Shown piece by piece: positions 5,536 to 36,685 of a stretch of 37,600 nucleotides of DNA. Within the stretch, counting starts at the first letter, position 1, and every line of letters begins with the position of its first letter. The position numbers were made by a program, and so were the translations under genes. The notes under the pieces are model-generated. The model made no database searches, had not been told where the DNA came from, and was given only the letters and a program-made list of their open reading frames with translations. Origin of the DNA: a virus; IMG/VR virus record IMGVR_UViG_3300042516_002926, positions 1-37,600 of that record; one strand, written 5' to 3'.

Positions 5536-6338
5536 AAATTTTAATCACCGGCGGAAATGGTTATATTGCTAAGAGTTTATATTCATACTTATATACTGAT
5601 TATGATATAACTATCATCACGCGAAATGATTTTGATTTAACAGATAGAAGTGCAACCGATTTATACTTTAAAGATAAATATTTTGATTTAGTAATACATA
5701 CAGCAATTAAAGGTGGCAATAGATTACATGTAGATAAATCTAATATTACACACGAAAACTTAAGTATGTTTTATAATTTGTGGAATAATAAACGTAAATT
5801 TAATCAACTTATAAGTTTTGGCTCCGGTGCCGAAGATGGTATGCCAGTTAGCCCATATGGATTAAGTAAACATGTAATATCAAAACTAATTGATAATATA
5901 GAATATTTTTATAATATAAGAATATTTGGCGTTTTTGATGAGAATGAATTAGAATCTAGATTCATTAAATCTAATATACAACGTTATATTAATAAACAAC
6001 CAATAATCATTCATCAAGATAAATTTATGGATTTTTTCTATATGAAAGATTTAGTATCAATTATTAAATTTTATTTGAAACGAGATCGAGTTTGGGAGTC
6101 CCCACCTCATAGTTTAGATTGTTGTTATCAAACAAAATATATGCTATCAGACATTGCAACAATGATCAATGAATTAGATTCACATAAAGTTAAAATTATT
6201 ATAGAATCATCTGATATTGCAAATCCATATACTGGTACATTTAATACACCGGTTATTGAAAATACTAATATTCCAGTTATTGATTATATTGGCATCGAAA
6301 CTGGTATACAACAAGTTTATGAAAAATTAAGGAAATAA
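5532..6338 (+). CDS. NAD-dependent sugar epimerase/reductase (GDP-fucose synthase/RmlD-like SDR)
   Basis: 268-residue extended SDR. N-terminal M-K-I-L-I-T-G-G-N-G-Y-I-A carries the nucleotide-binding glycines (final G replaced by A), and S-P-Y-G-L-S-K supplies the catalytic Tyr-x-x-x-Lys. The acidic turn and short C-terminal region look like WcaG/RmlD reductases, which finish 6-deoxy sugars by reducing the 4-keto group, sometimes after epimerisation. It is shorter than typical GDP-fucose synthase (about 320 residues). It probably reduces the keto or branched intermediate made by the upstream enzymes; this is inference from order. ATGA overlap with the aldolase and TAATG overlap with the GT2 gene. 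Confidence 0.78.
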   Translation: MKILITGGNGYIAKSLYSYLYTDYDITIITRNDFDLTDRSATDLYFKDKYFDLVIHTAIKGGNRLHVDKSNITHENLSMFYNLWNNKRKFNQLISFGSGAEDGMPVSPYGLSKHVISKLIDNIEYFYNIRIFGVFDENELESRFIKSNIQRYINKQPIIIHQDKFMDFFYMKDLVSIIKFYLKRDRVWESPPHSLDCCYQTKYMLSDIATMINELDSHKVKIIIESSDIANPYTGTFNTPVIENTNIPVIDYIGIETGIQQVYEKLRK

Positions 6339-21877: not shown

Positions 21878-23534
<1,657 letters not shown>

Positions 23535-26201: not shown

Positions 26202-28121
26202 ATGAAAAGAATTTTAAATGTATTACTAACCGTAGTACTATTATTAACAACGTTTAAGGGCTTAGCACAAGCACCTGTAGCACCTGGAAATGGTATTTAT
26301 GGATTGATCCATGCCACATATCAAGTAGCTCCAACTGCGACAGGGTTTACCACAGCAAATCTTACCCTACAAAACACCACATTAACGAAATATGCAGCAA
26401 CTCAGTTCCGCGTATTTTATGACAAAATTGCATTTACTAACGCAACAGTAGCATTGATTGGATCTACAACTAACTTGGATCTACAATATACTACTAATAC
26501 CGCAAATGGTTATATCACTATTACATTAGTATATACAGGCGCTAATGCTACTTATACATTAGCTAATGGTGAAAGATTTGCAATTACCTTCACTCACGCA
26601 GCTCCTGCAGTATTTAATAACTTGGCTTCTATTTCCAATTTAACTTGGACTGGTACACAAACGTATCAGCAATATGCAGGTAAGGCAAATGGTATGGATA
26701 CCACGTTAACATTGCATAACTATGGTGGTGTATTTACTTTACCAACATTTACATATGCAGGAACATTTACTAATACAACAGGAACACCGGCTAAACAATT
26801 ACCATTAGCATTGCAGACACGACCTGCAGGCGGTTCAACTTGGACACAGCATTCAGCTTATGCAACTGATAACTCAGGTAACTTTACATTCACAGTTAAC
26901 TTAGACACAACTTATTGGGATGTTCGTTTAGCAATCCAAGGTGATACAATGGCAGTTGGTAACTTGTTATCAGCAACCGATGCACAATTAATTAATCAAT
27001 GGGTATTAGGCAATACAGCTATGTCAGGCTTTGATTATTATACCGGTGACATTAATGAATCTGATAATGTAACAATTACAGATGCATATGGTGTATTTGG
27101 TAAAGTGGCAGGTAACTTTGCAACATGGCCAAACAACGTTAAGAATGTTAAGTTCTTTACCGCAACTGAATATGCAACGATCAACAACTCAGCAACCAAC
27201 TATACCTCAACTATTGCAGGAGCAACTAACTTCACATTTGAAATCATTGCCGGTCAACCTAGTACAGTAACATATTATGTTTGTGTACCTGGAGATGCAA
27301 ATGGTACTGGTTACCATATGGCACGTGAGACTCCAATTGAAATCGTAGTAGGACCAGCACCTGGATTACAAAATCAGATTTATAACGTAATTGATACGCG
27401 TGTTGAATATGATTTCCCAACTACTGAGATTGAAGTTAATGTACCAAATGTATCAGTAGATGCTGGTAACTTGGTTAATTTACCAGTTAAAGTATTAACT
27501 AATGGTGTTGAACTTAATTCATTGCAATTTGGATTAGAGTATGATCCAACCGTATTAGAGTTTAAAAGTTTGTATTCTACATCAGCAGCAAACAAATGGA
27601 TGACATTTGTTAATCCTACCGTAGGCGGAATTGCTTGGGGTGGGTACGATGTTACTAACAATGTTAATCCATTACGTGATGGCGATGATGTTGTTACAAT
27701 TCAATTCTTAGCATTACAGCCTCAAGCAGAATGGACAGAAAGTCCATTATGGACAACACGCAAATATGCAGGTAATACAAGCTCAAAAGACCTTGAAATT
27801 ACGCCGACTAATGGCATTTTGCAAGTATTGAAGATGCAAGGACCAGGAATTATATTAGATGACAATAACATTCAAATTTATCCTAATCCATTCCGTGAAG
27901 AAGTTAGCATCACATTTAATATAGCAACTCAATCAGATGCACAATTAGCAGTATATGATTTGCAAGGAAGAAAAGTAGTAACATTGATGTCGGGCCAGTT
28001 ACCTGCAGGACAATATAGTTATGTAAAGAACTTAGGTAAATTAGTACCTGGTATGTACATGGTTAGTTTGTCTAGTGACACAGAAGCACCGATAGTACAA
28101 AAATTAGTAAAACAGGATTAA
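26202..28121 (+). CDS. Secreted cohesin/dockerin-like surface protein with a T9SS type A sorting domain
   Basis: 639 residues. Signal peptide of about 23 residues ending L-A-Q. Residues ~30-170 and ~405-510 look like cohesin-type beta-sandwiches (F-R-V-F-Y-D-K-I-A-F-T-N and L-Q-F-G-L-E-Y-D-P-T-V-L-E-F). Between them, near 260-300, is a dockerin-like calcium loop pair (G-D-I-N-E-S-D-N-V-T-I-T-D-A-Y-G). The last ~80 residues (I-Q-I-Y-P-N-P-F ... L-A-V-Y-D-L-Q-G-R-K-V ... P-G-M-Y-M-V-S-L) are a type A C-terminal sorting domain, cut and replaced by a lipopolysaccharide anchor in T9SS hosts. First gene of the exported operon. Surface display through host T9SS is the natural prediction. Confidence 0.85.
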   Translation: MKRILNVLLTVVLLLTTFKGLAQAPVAPGNGIYGLIHATYQVAPTATGFTTANLTLQNTTLTKYAATQFRVFYDKIAFTNATVALIGSTTNLDLQYTTNTANGYITITLVYTGANATYTLANGERFAITFTHAAPAVFNNLASISNLTWTGTQTYQQYAGKANGMDTTLTLHNYGGVFTLPTFTYAGTFTNTTGTPAKQLPLALQTRPAGGSTWTQHSAYATDNSGNFTFTVNLDTTYWDVRLAIQGDTMAVGNLLSATDAQLINQWVLGNTAMSGFDYYTGDINESDNVTITDAYGVFGKVAGNFATWPNNVKNVKFFTATEYATINNSATNYTSTIAGATNFTFEIIAGQPSTVTYYVCVPGDANGTGYHMARETPIEIVVGPAPGLQNQIYNVIDTRVEYDFPTTEIEVNVPNVSVDAGNLVNLPVKVLTNGVELNSLQFGLEYDPTVLEFKSLYSTSAANKWMTFVNPTVGGIAWGGYDVTNNVNPLRDGDDVVTIQFLALQPQAEWTESPLWTTRKYAGNTSSKDLEITPTNGILQVLKMQGPGIILDDNNIQIYPNPFREEVSITFNIATQSDAQLAVYDLQGRKVVTLMSGQLPAGQYSYVKNLGKLVPGMYMVSLSSDTEAPIVQKLVKQD

Positions 28122-32217: not shown

Positions 32218-32660
32218 AAAAGTTATTGATTGCATTGTTATTTCCTATTACTGCATTTACACAAAATTGTGTTTATGTAGACACTGTTACGGTATCTGCT
32301 AAAGTAAGAGAATTAGGAACAAGAGATATTAGATTTGGTATTCAACAAATACTAGAAGATGAGTTATCAGAAAAGTATTGTATTGCTGATAAAGGCGATG
32401 CAGTTAGTTTAGATGTATACTTCTTTGGTATTCCTAGAACAACTATACGAGTTGTAGGCATTGAGCAAACCCAACAAGTAACACAGATCAAAGTACGCAT
32501 CAAGTACAAGGATGCTAAGTATGAAGGCTGTGGTGAATCAGAAACTGAAGTAAGAGCTGTTATGATTGAATTAGTAGACAACAAAGTTCCATTTGAGAAG
32601 ATGACAGTATCATCTGCACTAAAGAAAGCTATACATGAAGCTGTTAGTAAAATGCCTTAG
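32214..32660 (+). CDS. Small exported protein of unknown function
   Basis: 148 residues. Signal peptide M-K-K-L-L-I-A-L-L-F-P-I-T-A-F-T-Q. The mature part has three cysteines (C-V-Y, K-Y-C-I, E-G-C-G) and alternates strands and helices (V-S-L-D-V-Y-F-F-G-I-P ... T-Q-I-K-V-R-I-K-Y-K-D-A-K-Y) as small periplasmic alpha/beta proteins do. Between a nuclease and a protease it may be a partner or inhibitor of either. The overlap with the next gene is 26 bases. Confidence 0.6.
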   Translation: MKKLLIALLFPITAFTQNCVYVDTVTVSAKVRELGTRDIRFGIQQILEDELSEKYCIADKGDAVSLDVYFFGIPRTTIRVVGIEQTQQVTQIKVRIKYKDAKYEGCGESETEVRAVMIELVDNKVPFEKMTVSSALKKAIHEAVSKMP

Positions 32661-33099
32661 TCTTATTCCATTCTTAACCTTCGGACAAATTCGTATTGAT
32701 GATGTAGGCGATGGTTGGAAAAACAAAGTAGAACAAGCATTGCAAGTTGTACAACAAACTGATTGTGAGAAGTATGAGATGATTGTGTCTACGTGTACTC
32801 ATATATCTTATTCAACGGCTAACTTTGCTACAACAGAATCGGGCAATACTATTCTTATTCCGCGCAGAGAGATTATGGCCGGGAATATTAATGACATTGC
32901 AGCAATACTTGTGCATGAGTCATTGCATTTGTATATACTTCAAACCAAAATGTTAATGCCAGAAGCTGATGAAGAGTTGTTATGTTATGCATATGAATTA
33001 GAATTCCTTCTACAAATTCCAGGAGTTGAGCCATGGCTCCTAGATCATGCTCGCAAACAAATTGCATACTTTTCTAGCAAATCAGTTGGATCTAATTGA
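32635..33099 (+). CDS. Secreted HExxH metallopeptidase
   Basis: 154 residues. Signal peptide ends L-T-F-G-Q. H94-E-S-L-H98 in L-V-H-E-S-L-H-L-Y is a zinc-binding motif, with E-A-D-E-E-L-L-C-Y-A-Y-E-L-E about 13-25 residues later containing likely third-ligand acids. Small size and fold order suggest a compact zincin. It would act in the periplasm or outside the cell. It is the last gene of the surface-protein operon, and the promoter for the RNA locus overlaps its final codons. Confidence 0.72.
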   Translation: MKLLVKCLSLIPFLTFGQIRIDDVGDGWKNKVEQALQVVQQTDCEKYEMIVSTCTHISYSTANFATTESGNTILIPRREIMAGNINDIAAILVHESLHLYILQTKMLMPEADEELLCYAYELEFLLQIPGVEPWLLDHARKQIAYFSSKSVGSN

Positions 33100-33130: not shown

Positions 33131-33298
33131 ATGGAAATAGTTAGATTGATTAATGACACATGGCAATTGATTGATTCAGAAACAGAGTCAGTTGTTATAC
33201 AAGGCACTTGGGATGAGTGTTTTGACAAGTTAGCAGAACTAGAACGCGAAAATGAAAATGAATCATATCGCGATTTCTTATTATTATCAGGATTTTAA
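33131..33298 (+). CDS. 55-residue acidic protein ahead of the RNA locus
   Basis: M-E-I-V-R-L-I-N-D-T-W-Q-L-I-D-S-E-T-E-S, ending F-L-L-L-S-G-F. An upstream in-frame ATG at 33047 exists but lies before the promoter. Strongly acidic with short helices. No function recognised; as the only protein in the transcript of the structured RNA it may simply be the leader ORF. Confidence 0.6.
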   Translation: MEIVRLINDTWQLIDSETESVVIQGTWDECFDKLAELERENENESYRDFLLLSGF

Positions 33299-33377
33299 AA
33301 TAAAAACGCTGATGCTCCGATTGGGCATTGAAGAGCACACCGGTTGCTCCAAGCAGGTTAAGCGTGCCCTGCAACAT

Positions 33378-33449
33378 GTTCCCATCGTCTAACGGTTAGG
33401 ACGTTAGGTTTTCATCCTAGAAATCGGAGTTCGATTCTCCGTGGGAATA
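33378..33449 (+). tRNA. tRNA-Glu (UUC)
   Basis: 72 bases without CCA. Acceptor GTTCCCA pairs TGGGAAT (one G-U), D stem GTCT/GGAC, anticodon stem TTAGG/CCTAG with loop TTTTCAT giving anticodon TTC, and T arm CGGAG-TTCGATT-CTCCG. All positions expected of a bacterial tRNA-Glu are present. Confidence 0.93.
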
Positions 33450-33450
33450 C

Positions 33451-33556
33451 AACACATAAACTCAAGTACCCATACCGCAAACGTAGGGTTAAATAAGATA
33501 CAATTTCGTGCTATCCATTGTGTAGGGGCGGGAAGTAGAATGCTTGAGAGTGTGTT
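33451..33556 (+). ncRNA. Structured RNA domain between tRNA-Glu and the tRNA-like element
   Basis: Ends pair AACACA (33451-33456) with TGTGTT (33551-33556), then after a TAAA/AG internal loop CTCAAG (33461-33466) with CTTGAG (33543-33548). Inside, ATACAAT (33498-33504) pairs with ATTGTGT (33517-33523). It begins one base after tRNA-Glu and ends one base before the tRNA-like acceptor, so it looks like an arm of the larger RNA. Confidence 0.6.
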
Positions 33557-33557
33557 T

Positions 33558-33645
33558 AGTCAGGTGGCTACATGGGGGTAAGCGCCCTGAGACCCGGCAA
33601 AGTTACGGGTTAGGGGAGATGCAGGTTCGAATCCTGTCCTGACTA
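33558..33645 (+). ncRNA. tRNA-like element with normal acceptor, D and T arms but no normal anticodon arm
   Basis: 88 bases. Acceptor AGTCAGG/CCTGACT with discriminator A, D stem GCT/AGC with a GG-containing loop, and T arm GCAGG-TTCGAAT-CCTGT are all good. Where the anticodon and variable arms should be, CCCT (33585-33588) pairs with AGGG (33612-33615) and ACCCG (33592-33596) with CGGGT (33606-33610), enclosing a nine-base loop with no U33-type layout. It may be a degenerate class II tRNA or a tRNA mimic acting as a processing or structural domain. Confidence 0.6.
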
Positions 33646-33786
33646 CACGTTTCGGTTCATCACCGAATAGTATGTCCAATATGATGAGAAGTAGGTTGAT
33701 TACCTATATGGAACTTCTGATAGGGAAACGCTCTATCCGGTTTGACTAACCGCGGGGAATATCAAAGGGAAGCAAAGAACAACGTG
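33646..33786 (+). ncRNA. Multi-hairpin RNA domain between the tRNA-like element and tRNA-Met
   Basis: Closed by CACGTT (33646-33651) with AACGTG (33781-33786). Inside are TCGGT-TCATC-ACCGA (33652-33666), AGAAGT (33687-33692) with ACTTCT (33713-33718) enclosing AGGT-TGATT-ACCT, GATAG/CTATC (33719-33723 with 33733-33737) and CGGTT-TGACT-AACCG (33738-33752). Three of the hairpins share five-base loops. Confidence 0.65.
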
Positions 33787-33802
33787 CTCTCGTAGTCATA
33801 AT

Positions 33803-33875
33803 GGTCTTTTAACTCAGGTGGTAGAGTGCTGCCCTCATAAGGCAAGAGTCGTAGGTTCGAATCCTGCAAGGACCA
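33803..33875 (+). tRNA. tRNA with CAU anticodon (Met, or Ile if lysidine-modified)
   Basis: 73 bases without CCA. Acceptor GGTCTTT pairs AAGGACC (one G-U), D stem ACTC/GAGT, anticodon loop CTCATAA with one mismatch at the top of the stem, and T arm GTAGG-TTCGAAT-CCTGC. No initiator-type C1-A72 mismatch, so an elongator Met or tRNA-Ile2. Confidence 0.88.
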
Positions 33876-33939
33876 CGCAAAAAACAATTTGGGTGGAGTT
33901 TCCTTACCCTGAAAAGGATGGGTTTTACAAGCCAATTAC

Positions 33940-34013
33940 GCGTCTGTAGCTCCAATTGGTAGAGCACCGGATTCCAAATCCGAATGTTAGTGGTTCGAAT
34001 CCATTCAGGCGTG
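33940..34013 (+). tRNA. tRNA-Trp (CCA)
   Basis: 74 bases without CCA. Acceptor GCGTCTG pairs CAGGCGT (two G-U pairs), D stem GCTC/GAGC, anticodon loop TTCCAAA, T arm GTGG-TTCGAAT-CCAT type, and discriminator G as in bacterial tRNA-Trp. The discriminator also begins the next helix (34013-34017 with 34050-34054). Confidence 0.9.
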
Positions 34014-34414
34014 CACTGGCTCATATGGCAACTTAACATTGCCTGAGGGAGTGCAGATAGTTAAGTATCGTGGCACCGGGTGAACTGCTGGCAGAGTTGA
34101 GTTCAAAATACAAGAAGGCAGGTGGGAGCTTGTATTATATTTATTTATGACAGTACCTACCACGCTTCTGATCAAGTATCATAGCGTACCAGGGTAGGTC
34201 TTTTACCCCACCAATGTTTATCATTGGAACCCCATAGTGATACTGTTGCTATGGAATGCCGCCCCCCTGCGTTGAGATAAACGTAGGCCTAAGAGCCATC
34301 GGGCATACCGTAAGATCTGCTCACTCCGATGGTCGCTTTTGTTATTGGGAAGTGGAACTTGATTCTTTGGTGCAAGACGTTGCCTCACTGAACAACCCTA
34401 TAACCAATTAACGC
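34013..34414 (+). ncRNA. 3' structured domain of the giant RNA
   Basis: Contains GCACT (34013-34017)/AGTGC (34050-34054), CTCA/TGAG and GGCAA/TTGCC stacked as a long hairpin whose loop CTTAAC (34032-34037) matches GTTAAG (34060-34065); TGAACT/AGTTCA (34081, 34100); AATACAAG/CTTGTATT (34107, 34129); GGGTA/TACCC (34192, 34204); CCAATG-TTTAT-CATTGG (34211-34227); CCATAG/CTATGG (34232, 34249); CCTGCGTT/AACGTAGG (34266, 34280); CCATCGG/CCGATGG (34296, 34326); ATTGG/CCAAT (34344, 34404). Confidence 0.65.
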
Positions 34415-34459
34415 ACCCAGGTAAGCCTGTCTGATCAACAGAAACTGCCTGGGTTTTTT
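34415..34459 (+). terminator. Rho-independent terminator ending the RNA locus
   Basis: ACCCAGG (34415-34421) pairs with CCTGGGT (34448-34454), with an inner CTGT/ACAG helix, followed by a run of six T residues (34454-34459). Confidence 0.9.
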
Positions 34460-34489: not shown

Positions 34490-36685
34490 ATGAAACATGT
34501 TTACACGTTGTTATTGGTATTGTTATCCATTAACGCATATTCTCAGTATTGTCCAGCATTAGGACCTGATCAATTATTACCTTGCGGTGTTGGTTCAACA
34601 ACACTTACAGCTGACTTAAGTCAATGCGGAGGAGGAATTGGTCCAAAGGAAACAACTACATATGCAGTATCAAGTATTCCATATGCAGCACAATCAAATA
34701 CCGGTAACCAATTGTTTATGACTGATGACTCACAACAAGGACCATTTGCTATTGGGTTTAACTTTTGTTTCTTCGGCAATACGTATTCTCAGTTCTACGT
34801 AGGATCTAATGGTTGGATAGCATTCTCGCCAGGACAGCCAACAACGTTCACATCACAACCTATCCCTACATTTAATGCACTAGTGCCTAAGAATTGTATA
34901 ATGGGACCGTGGCAGGATTGGCATCCAGGCCTGGGTGGTCAAATACGTTATCAGACATCAGGAGTAGCTCCTTGTCGCAAATTAACAATAAGTTGGATTG
35001 GCGTGCCAATGTTTTCATGTACAGGTAATCAAGGGACATTTCATATTGTAATTTATGAATCAACCAACAACATAGAAAATTATATTCAAAACAAACCAGC
35101 TTGTACTCAATGGCAAGGTGGAACAGCAACCGAAGGAATACATAATGCATTAGGGACACAAGGTATTGCAGTGCCAGGAAGAAACTCAACGGCTTGGACT
35201 GCTAACAATGATGCTTGGAAATGGACTCCAAATGGTGCTACGGTTAATCCGGTATTAACTTGGTACCAAGTAGGTAATCCAGTAGCAATTGGAACTGGTC
35301 CTAGCATTACTGTTACTCCATTAACTCCAACACAATATACTTGCCACTTTGTTTATCCTACTTGCAATGCAGGTTGGGCTTCGTGTAACATCGGAGGCTT
35401 AGGACCTGACACTGTATTAGTTGTGCCTGGCCCACCTAACCTTACGCCTCCGGGAATTGTATATAGTAATCCTTCATGTATTAACGAATGCGATGGAACT
35501 ATAATAGTATCACCTATAGGCGGTACGCAACCAATGACAATTTCATGGAACGGGCCTACCGGATTCACTCCTTTAAATTTATGTGATGGTGTATATCAAT
35601 TCAATATCATTGATGCGGCGGGATGTACAGTATCAGGAGTAGTTACTTTAGTTGACCCTCCGATCCCAGTAGTAGGACCTATCACGGCATTAGACACAAT
35701 TTGTTGGCAATCTACATCGGAAACTTATTCAATACCAGTACAACCTAATTATACATACCAATGGAGTTCAGTAGGCACAATCATTTCAGGACAAGGATCT
35801 AGTACCATCAACGTTGATTGGAGTGCATTAAACGGAGGATATATACCCGGAGCAGTTCAAGTAACCGGGTTTGATATCAACGGCTGTCCTAGTTTGCCAG
35901 TAGATGTAGACATAGAAATATTAAATATATTACCGGTGATACAACCAGTAGGACCTTTTTGTTCATATGATGAGTTCGTAGGATTGCAGGCTACACCTAT
36001 AGGCGGAGTATTTTCCGGCGTTGGAGTAATAGATCCTAACTTCACTCCGGGTGATGCAGTTGGTACTAATACTATAACGTATACATATACTCAAAGCGGT
36101 TGTGTATTTGATACTACGACACAAGTAACAGTGTATCCACAACCAACCATATCACCAATTACACCTTATAATGAATTCTATGAAATATGCGATGGTGATT
36201 CAGTTGTTAGTACATACTCAGTAGTTCCTGACTTACCTGGATACAATGAATGGACTTTATTAAATAACACTACGCAACAAGATGAATTAACTGTAACTTG
36301 GAATGCACCTGGTATGTTTGATATATCAGTAGTGCATTGGTCTAATGGTTGCGTTTCATCACCACAGACTACAGCAATAACCATCGTGCAGTGTCCTTCA
36401 GAATTGTTTTATATCCCAAATGGCTTTACACCAGATGGTGATGAACATAACAATACGCTACGCTTTGTAGTAGGCGATGCGTTTGATCGATTTGATTTCG
36501 CAGTAGTAATTTACAACCGTTGGGGAGAAATAGTATATGAATCTCACGATGCGACTGCTGAATGGGACGGAACATATAACAATGCAATGTGTCAAGCAGG
36601 AACATATATTTATTATATTCAACTCAAACACAAAGAAACATCGAAGCGTTATGCTTTCAATGGACATGTAACTTTGTTGAAATAA
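34490..36685 (+). CDS. Secreted SprB-like surface protein with a T9SS type B (gliding-motility-associated) C-terminal domain
   Basis: 731 residues. Signal peptide ends about A-Y-S-Q. Residues ~40-270 resemble a nidogen-like/adhesin domain with paired cysteines. Residues ~320-395 fit one SprB-type repeat (S-C-I-N-E-C-D-G-T-I ... G-G-T-Q-P-M-T-I-S-W ... L-C-D-G-V-Y-Q-F ... D-A-A-G-C-T-V). Further Ig/PKD-like strands follow. The last ~85 residues (Y-I-P-N-G-F-T-P-D-G-D-E-H-N-N ... I-Y-N-R-W-G-E-I-V-Y ... W-D-G-T-Y-N-N ... G-T-Y-I-Y-Y-I) are the CHU_C, type B sorting domain. Such proteins are moved to the surface of gliding flavobacteria by T9SS. It follows the RNA locus terminator; TATTTATATAAAA (34469-34481) may be its -10 region. 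Confidence 0.9.
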   Translation: MKHVYTLLLVLLSINAYSQYCPALGPDQLLPCGVGSTTLTADLSQCGGGIGPKETTTYAVSSIPYAAQSNTGNQLFMTDDSQQGPFAIGFNFCFFGNTYSQFYVGSNGWIAFSPGQPTTFTSQPIPTFNALVPKNCIMGPWQDWHPGLGGQIRYQTSGVAPCRKLTISWIGVPMFSCTGNQGTFHIVIYESTNNIENYIQNKPACTQWQGGTATEGIHNALGTQGIAVPGRNSTAWTANNDAWKWTPNGATVNPVLTWYQVGNPVAIGTGPSITVTPLTPTQYTCHFVYPTCNAGWASCNIGGLGPDTVLVVPGPPNLTPPGIVYSNPSCINECDGTIIVSPIGGTQPMTISWNGPTGFTPLNLCDGVYQFNIIDAAGCTVSGVVTLVDPPIPVVGPITALDTICWQSTSETYSIPVQPNYTYQWSSVGTIISGQGSSTINVDWSALNGGYIPGAVQVTGFDINGCPSLPVDVDIEILNILPVIQPVGPFCSYDEFVGLQATPIGGVFSGVGVIDPNFTPGDAVGTNTITYTYTQSGCVFDTTTQVTVYPQPTISPITPYNEFYEICDGDSVVSTYSVVPDLPGYNEWTLLNNTTQQDELTVTWNAPGMFDISVVHWSNGCVSSPQTTAITIVQCPSELFYIPNGFTPDGDEHNNTLRFVVGDAFDRFDFAVVIYNRWGEIVYESHDATAEWDGTYNNAMCQAGTYIYYIQLKHKETSKRYAFNGHVTLLK

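Follow-up and report, generated by a model that had tools for sequence, protein, structure and literature searches.

What fills the long gene-free stretch of this phage genome, and what could it do for the phage? The window—the whole stretch of DNA that was analysed, a virus record of 37.6 kb (IMGVR_UViG_3300042516_002926)—belongs to a phage that encodes a GroEL of its own and probably infects Bacteroidota, a host assignment suggested by the type IX secretion tail domains in the phage and by the bacterial counterparts of the hairpins described below. Genes for GroEL and for proteins with a type IX secretion C-terminal domain (Por_Secre_tail, CHU_C) lie at 21921–23534, 26202–28121, and 34490–36685. 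Between an ORF that ends at 33298 and the next one, which starts at 34490, there is no long ORF, and the GC content is 0.45–0.49 versus 0.31–0.37 upstream. A preliminary description saw this stretch as packed with helices from a promoter at its start to a terminator, with three tRNAs and a tRNA-like element as branches of one giant RNA. That the stretch is a structured non-coding region holds, but its overall excess of helices is only modest, with MFE z-scores relative to shuffles of −2.3 in the sense direction, −2.3 for the reverse complement, and −1.9 when the tRNAs are left out. Because this value is modest and equal on the reverse strand, counting helices is not by itself strong evidence; two of the spacers, the leader and gap3, fold no better than shuffles. 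Apart from tRNA, a search of the stretch against Rfam 15 found nothing significant even at E ≤ 10. The functional clue is the presence of two hairpins resembling AbiF antitoxins, which is invisible without databases, and we propose, with a probability of roughly three in four, that 34150–34459 specifies a phage non-coding RNA that would act as an anti-defence decoy of the AbiF antitoxin, in which two classes of this RNA (B and A) are combined.

The proposed decoy RNA (plus strand, as are all the features of the stretch given here) is a 3′ array of about 310 nt with seven hairpins in the order B, M1a, M1b, H1, H2 (class A), H3, and H4. The class B AbiF-antitoxin-like hairpin (ACAGTACCTACCACGC...GCGTACCAGGGTAGGTCTTTT), identified with the covariance model CM R1 discussed below, is at 34150–34203. 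It is followed by M1 at 34206–34259, two hairpins (CCAATG/CATTGG and CCATAGTGAT/TTGCTATGG) that are part of the MFE structure and are conserved in five viral loci (L011, L292, L298, L319, and L229), and by H1 (CCTGCGTT-GAGATA-AACGTAGG) at 34266–34287, which is seen in aligned homologues. H2, the class A AbiF-antitoxin-like hairpin, spans 34294–34334, with its loop GCATACCGTAAGATCTGC at 34303–34320 and an extra 3′ bulge, TCACT. H3 (GTTATTGG...CCAATTAAC), at 34341–34412, has a variable interior and was delineated by alignment, with nhmmer matches in L489, L473, L295, L223, L227, and others. H4, at 34416–34459, is a terminator hairpin with a conserved internal loop and a T-run. The 3′ ~312 nt fold with an MFE of −94.1 (z −2.8), which none of 100 shuffles equals. 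Covariation among homologues, which the preliminary description had named as a check, is found in the helices of this 3′ part. It is strong in H4, where 98.1% of cells are paired and 50 are double-change cells, a result not approached by any slid register and seen in 0 of 500 shuffles, and the terminator end of the span proposed earlier is thereby confirmed. Its promoter end is not, as no sigma-70 promoter in the stretch scores above shuffles. Instead, a promoter of the Bacteroidota type is likely within the stretch, at about 34133–34146, where TATTATATTTATTT comes near to the TAnnTTTG box with the final G missing, and the array probably has its own promoter. Among 34 loci including the window, 19 (the window not among them) have a TAnnTTTG box 57–131 nt upstream of the H2 loop.

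The array is found, whole or in part, in more than 30 phage loci (about 33 homologues), most of which have no called tRNA closer than 1.5 kb, and its 5′ end varies, starting at H1, M1, or B. Two of these loci, L473 and L489, have the same order of hairpins with both antitoxin classes. They represent unbiased support because they were fetched via the tRNA shell described below rather than via the antitoxin loop, and because their class A loops are altered, by one substitution in L473 and by a compensated change in L489. Of the seven hairpins, B, H2, and H4 were compared with host genomes, and a counterpart was seen for B and H2. The possibility that H4 is another host defence RNA was considered and rejected, as 5 of the 395 genomes searched had weak matches only, with E-values between 2e-4 and 5e-3, which were taken as chance. 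A 14-mer pattern (GGGTGAACTGCTGG) gave chance matches, which were reused as negative controls. The class A loop (34303–34320) and the H4 loop (34429–34439) contain the palindromes AGATCT and TGATCA, respectively, which may permit loop–loop dimers.

Class B emerged from the toxin gene. Abi_2 genes were sought by family in 247 genomes of the phylum Bacteroidota, 24 of which were positive, and a second class of RNA, AGTACTTATCACGCTTCCCGTAAGAACAGCGTACCAGGGTAAGTCTTTTGC, lies upstream of such genes. The covarying model CM R1, built exclusively from ten abiF-linked bacterial sequences, matches the window at 34149–34206 with 49.5 bits and an E-value of 9.4e-12 (rough, by the tool's own statement, as are those of the class A model CM R2), the next best match being 10.9 bits. 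The window hairpin has the outer stem, the inner CGC/GCG stem, the 3′ bulge TACCAGG, and the T-run of the bacterial RNAs. It departs from them in the apical loop, which is TTCTGATCAAGTATCATA versus TCCCGTAAGAAC in most bacterial members, a loop that also varies in bacteria (e.g., in L403) and in the phage loci L473 and L489. In L473 and L489 the class B hairpin occupies the corresponding position; it is missing from L011, the closest relative of the window. In the phylum, CM R1 scores in 48 of 395 genomes, with an adjacent AbiF in 17 of the 30 loci fetched, and neither CM R1 nor CM R2 had a match in 80 unrelated viral loci.

Class A is defined by its loop. The pattern CATACCGTAAGATCTGC (34304–34320) matches at least 119 virus contigs, nearly always as a hairpin loop carried on a freely changing stem: 40 of the 67 distinct flank pairs yield helices of 6 bp or longer, versus a mean of 7.9 and a maximum of 15 when flanks were re-paired in 300 trials. 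These hairpins stand alone behind phage genes and are followed by a T-run, come second of two hairpins, or form part of an array of the window type. The complete 18-mer GCATACCGTAAGATCTGC is found unchanged in 69 stretches of species-representative genomes, where simple arithmetic predicts about 7 by chance, and 68 of the 69 are titled Bacteroidota; the remaining stretch, L394, is from a metagenome bin and carries the phage-type version at a contig end. In these bacterial loci, a TAnnTTTG promoter box typically precedes the hairpin and an ORF of ~300 aa usually starts 20–32 nt after it, an ORF identified as Abi_2 (E 1e-52 to 1e-55), as AbiD by PADLOC, and by the HEPN-type motif RNIIAHH; abiF is present in 52 of the 69. 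As class A loci were chosen by an exact match to the loop, only the covariation of the stem and the genomic context count as evidence for this class. The window has the exact 18-mer on a stem that covaries in phage copies. CM R2 aligned only the loop part in the window (23.6 bits, E 0.0011), because the stem, which is present, is offset by the extra 3′ bulge TCACT.

Several loci found in this search have features of their own. In four bacterial loci (L332, L375, L386, and also L369), the gene behind the class A hairpin is not abiF, and three such genes have a start that may be that of a type I restriction HsdR subunit. In L348 (about 6063–6140) and L357, the class A hairpin is followed by a second promoter-like box and a class B–like RNA (ACAGTACACGCCACGCTACCCATCAGAACAGCGTCCC), which suggests that hosts may carry both classes in tandem. 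L360, a class A abiF locus, contains the Rfam DUF3800-VIII RNA at 504–568 (46.7 bits) and 1750–1815 on the minus strand (36.6 bits, which does not reach the cut-off). Among phage loci with a class A loop, L238 (3270–3331) and L244 (2718–2779) have tRNAs and the Rfam freshwater-1 RNA (RF02979); L264 has a phage tmRNA (8670–9115, minus strand, 65.5 bits) about 420 nt upstream of the loop; L209 has, about 140 nt behind it, a tRNA-like minihelix with acceptor and T arm in which the D and anticodon arms are nearly absent; and L208, L217, and L243 are among the loci that share another, longer loop context (GATCGAAA...GTGGCATACC...TCGCTTAATAGC).

Copies that stand alone behind phage genes and run into T-runs could be mere transcription terminators or RNA-stabilising 3′ ends with a fortuitous resemblance to AbiF RNAs. 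We consider this improbable, because an invariant 18-nt loop is unnecessary for termination, because class B matches abiF-linked RNAs (E 1e-11) with bulge and inner stem included, and because the array is closed by a terminator of its own, H4.

AbiF, which is restrained by RNA, has been described as ancestral to the Cas13 nucleases. The principal publication on the two is reportedly that of Zilberzwige-Tal in Cell in 2025. AbiF proteins are RNases kept inactive by RNA, and the structure of an AbiF–RNA complex has been reviewed (PMC12737573); in Clostridioides difficile, the RNA neutralises the AbiF RNase in trans (PMC12373285). A DNA region of lactococcal phage sk1 that protects against AbiF is also on record (Rince 2000, as cited in PMC12737573). 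The AbiF antitoxin RNA (AbiFr; RCd22 of C. difficile; Rfam RF03085) is a short hairpin immediately upstream of a gene for an Abi_2/AbiD/F HEPN toxin. In the window, the two hairpins agree with the Bacteroidota forms of this RNA in sequence and structure, class A being aligned by its model in the loop part only. What sets the phage RNA apart is that the toxin gene is missing and that a single array unites the two classes with further hairpins. The RF03085 model misses the Bacteroidota RNAs and the window alike, with no match in the window at E ≤ 10 or in abiF-bearing bacterial loci at E ≤ 1.

If the phage RNA is a decoy, the following scenario would apply. In the host, the small hairpin RNA made from just upstream of abiF would bind the HEPN ribonuclease and hold it inactive; once a phage interfered with host transcription, the antitoxin would run out and the toxin would be released. 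By transcribing stable, terminated, well-folded copies of the antitoxin in two versions, with no toxin gene, the phage would keep AbiF bound by its own RNA, neutralised, and infection would proceed to the benefit of the phage; the tRNAs and other modules upstream would be separate neighbours in the same island and different molecules. Binding of AbiF by the window RNA is not certain, since the apical loop of class B differs and the 3′ bulge of class A is longer than in the bacterial RNAs.

The absence of the toxin gene from the phages is what makes a mimic of this RNA. No cognate Abi_2 gene lies beside it in the window, which is why we regard it as a mimic rather than as part of a complete AbiF system, and an orphan antitoxin-like RNA in a phage is also what characterises pseudo-ToxI. 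Abi_2 was found in 0 of 64 whole virus records (the window, L011, 48 hairpin-bearing records, and 14 with tRNA shells), many of them longer than 100 kb and many of them fragments, so that the missing abiF makes a toxin elsewhere in the genome less likely and no more than that. Among the 119 viral loci fetched with a class A loop, abiF is present in one, L293, as an intact pair. This pair and the AbiF systems known from C. difficile prophages (PMC12373285) would fit the view that the hairpins are antitoxins, or remnants, belonging to AbiF systems of the phages themselves, retained because they serve lysogeny or competition and not directed against the host. With 0 of 64 records positive for Abi_2, and with covarying stems and recurring two-class arrays that would be unexpected of remnants, we judge this view very unlikely.

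An anti-host decoy of the AbiF antitoxin would have precedents, as phage RNA mimicry works against ToxIN in the case of phiTE pseudo-ToxI (PMC3475682) and against CRISPR-Cas in the case of Racr (PMC10651486). Like pseudo-ToxI, the window RNA is a host-type antitoxin RNA carried by a phage in the absence of the toxin gene, and its putative action is to neutralise an RNase toxin. It differs in its target, AbiF rather than ToxN, and in being a stable and widespread array, whereas in phiTE the repeats are expanded in rare escape mutants. Like Racrs, it is a solitary host-defence RNA element in a viral genome from which the defence gene is absent; Racrs, in contrast, mimic CRISPR repeats and target Cas proteins. 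A literature search, conducted mostly without subscription papers, found no description of AbiF-antitoxin mimics in phages. Neither antitoxin class was found by blastn in 50,697 records of isolated phages, a search limited by the short queries, so that these mimics are so far known only from uncultivated phages.

What of the 5′ part of the stretch? Its tRNAs for Glu (ttc, 33378–33450), Met (cat, 33803–33876), and Trp (cca, 33940–34014) were located, as the preliminary description had it, and between and around them lie the leader (33302–33377), gap1 (33451–33557; fold z −2.7), a tRNA shell (33558–33645), gap2 (33646–33802), gap3 (33877–33939), and a mid module (34015–34131). Relatives were reached via the endonuclease gene just upstream of the stretch, which led to 79 viral loci, L011 being the closest (L265 is the same contig and not independent); the neighbouring protein at 32635–33099, used as bait, found none. 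L011 has the elements of the window in a different order: the leader runs directly into the mid module and the tail with no tRNAs between, and gap2 and tRNA-Met sit upstream of this unit. It is the only relative that carries the leader and mid modules. The three gaps recur separately and in different phages, gap1 in L546, L561, L579, and L469 by nhmmer, gap2 in L011 (97% identity), L510, L546, L549, and L083–L086, and gap3 in L227, L473, L547, L554, and L578. Because relatives shuffle the pieces, because L011 joins leader to tail without tRNAs, and because the spacers recur alone, this comparison indicates that the stretch is a block of separate modules, a phage tRNA/ncRNA island, and not one giant RNA. 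Both gap1 and gap3 are recurring phage RNA modules, and gap2, ~155 nt long and conserved, sits directly behind a tRNA or a tRNA shell in several loci (L509 is among its carriers); in host genomes it gave short chance matches only.

A long-range pairing between leader and tail was suggested by a consensus fold of two sequences. In that fold all substitutions preserve pairing, but these sequences are also the source of the structure itself. The pairing disrupts H2, and its complementarity is not above chance, which led to its rejection. The idea of a single giant ornate RNA over 33301–34459 (GOLLD- or ROOL-like, possibly a nanocage), in which the tRNAs would be branches or cargo of linkers, can appeal to dense structure close to phage tRNAs, to tRNAs that can occur in GOLLD linkers (PMC12286853), and to the z-score of −2.3 over the whole region, yet it is highly unlikely, as neither the window nor the L011 core matches the GOLLD or ROOL models at E ≤ 10, the window unit is ~310 nt and predicted to be a row of independent hairpins, L011 and other relatives contradict tRNAs as branches, and the complementarity of a leader loop to the distal hairpin at 34291–34336 is at chance level (reached in 144 of 500 shuffles).

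The tRNA-like element at 33558–33645 is recognised as a tRNA by Rfam (38.8 bits), in line with the preliminary description, and rejected by ARAGORN. It has no regular anticodon loop with a decodable anticodon, an unrelated insert taking the place of the anticodon domain. Compared with tRNA-Leu, the acceptor stem, the beginning of the D arm, and the T arm are tRNA-like, whereas variable inserts with no consistent anticodon stand in for the anticodon domain. Two candidate leads on this element were discarded, a match to skipping-rope RNA (E 0.26 only) and a pattern for its anticodon side (ACGGGTTNNGGGAGATGC, 16 specified bases), which gave 6 chance matches. The element belongs to a family of tRNA shells with constant acceptor and T arms (5′ AGTCAGGTGGC and 3′ CAGGTTCGAATCCTGTCCTGACT, ends fixed by the search pattern), which comprises at least 141 distinct inserts of 32–113 nt in at least 121 similarity groups and at least 128 loci, including the window, L466–L543, L227, L071, and L083. 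Among the matches listed, some records have several shells, 4 or 5 in number (5 in L468), and ARAGORN called 43 of the 141 listed shells as tRNAs, with scattered anticodons. The pattern was found in none of 395 genomes of the phylum. The shell family is a second class of phage RNA, one of constant tRNA shells with hypervariable inserts, and may be what the laboratory tRNA scaffold looks like in nature. One insert, in L490 (2786–2891), contains GCTTCCCATAAGAACAGC, a sequence like that at the apex of the class B AbiF RNA.

It is a tentative idea, and one we hold as rather less probable than not, that Bacteroidota phages maintain islands of RNA counter-defence in which arrays of AbiF decoys with several specificities and a large repertoire of tRNA-shell inserts, such as the class B–like one of L490, would each be directed against a different RNA-dependent defence of the host. 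If the decoy reading of the array is true, it would argue strongly that in Bacteroidota AbiF is a genuine barrier to phages, which they answer by RNA mimicry, and it would add a third target system to the principle established by pseudo-ToxI and Racr. The spacers of phage tRNA clusters, so far puzzling, might then be read as RNAs that counter host defence.
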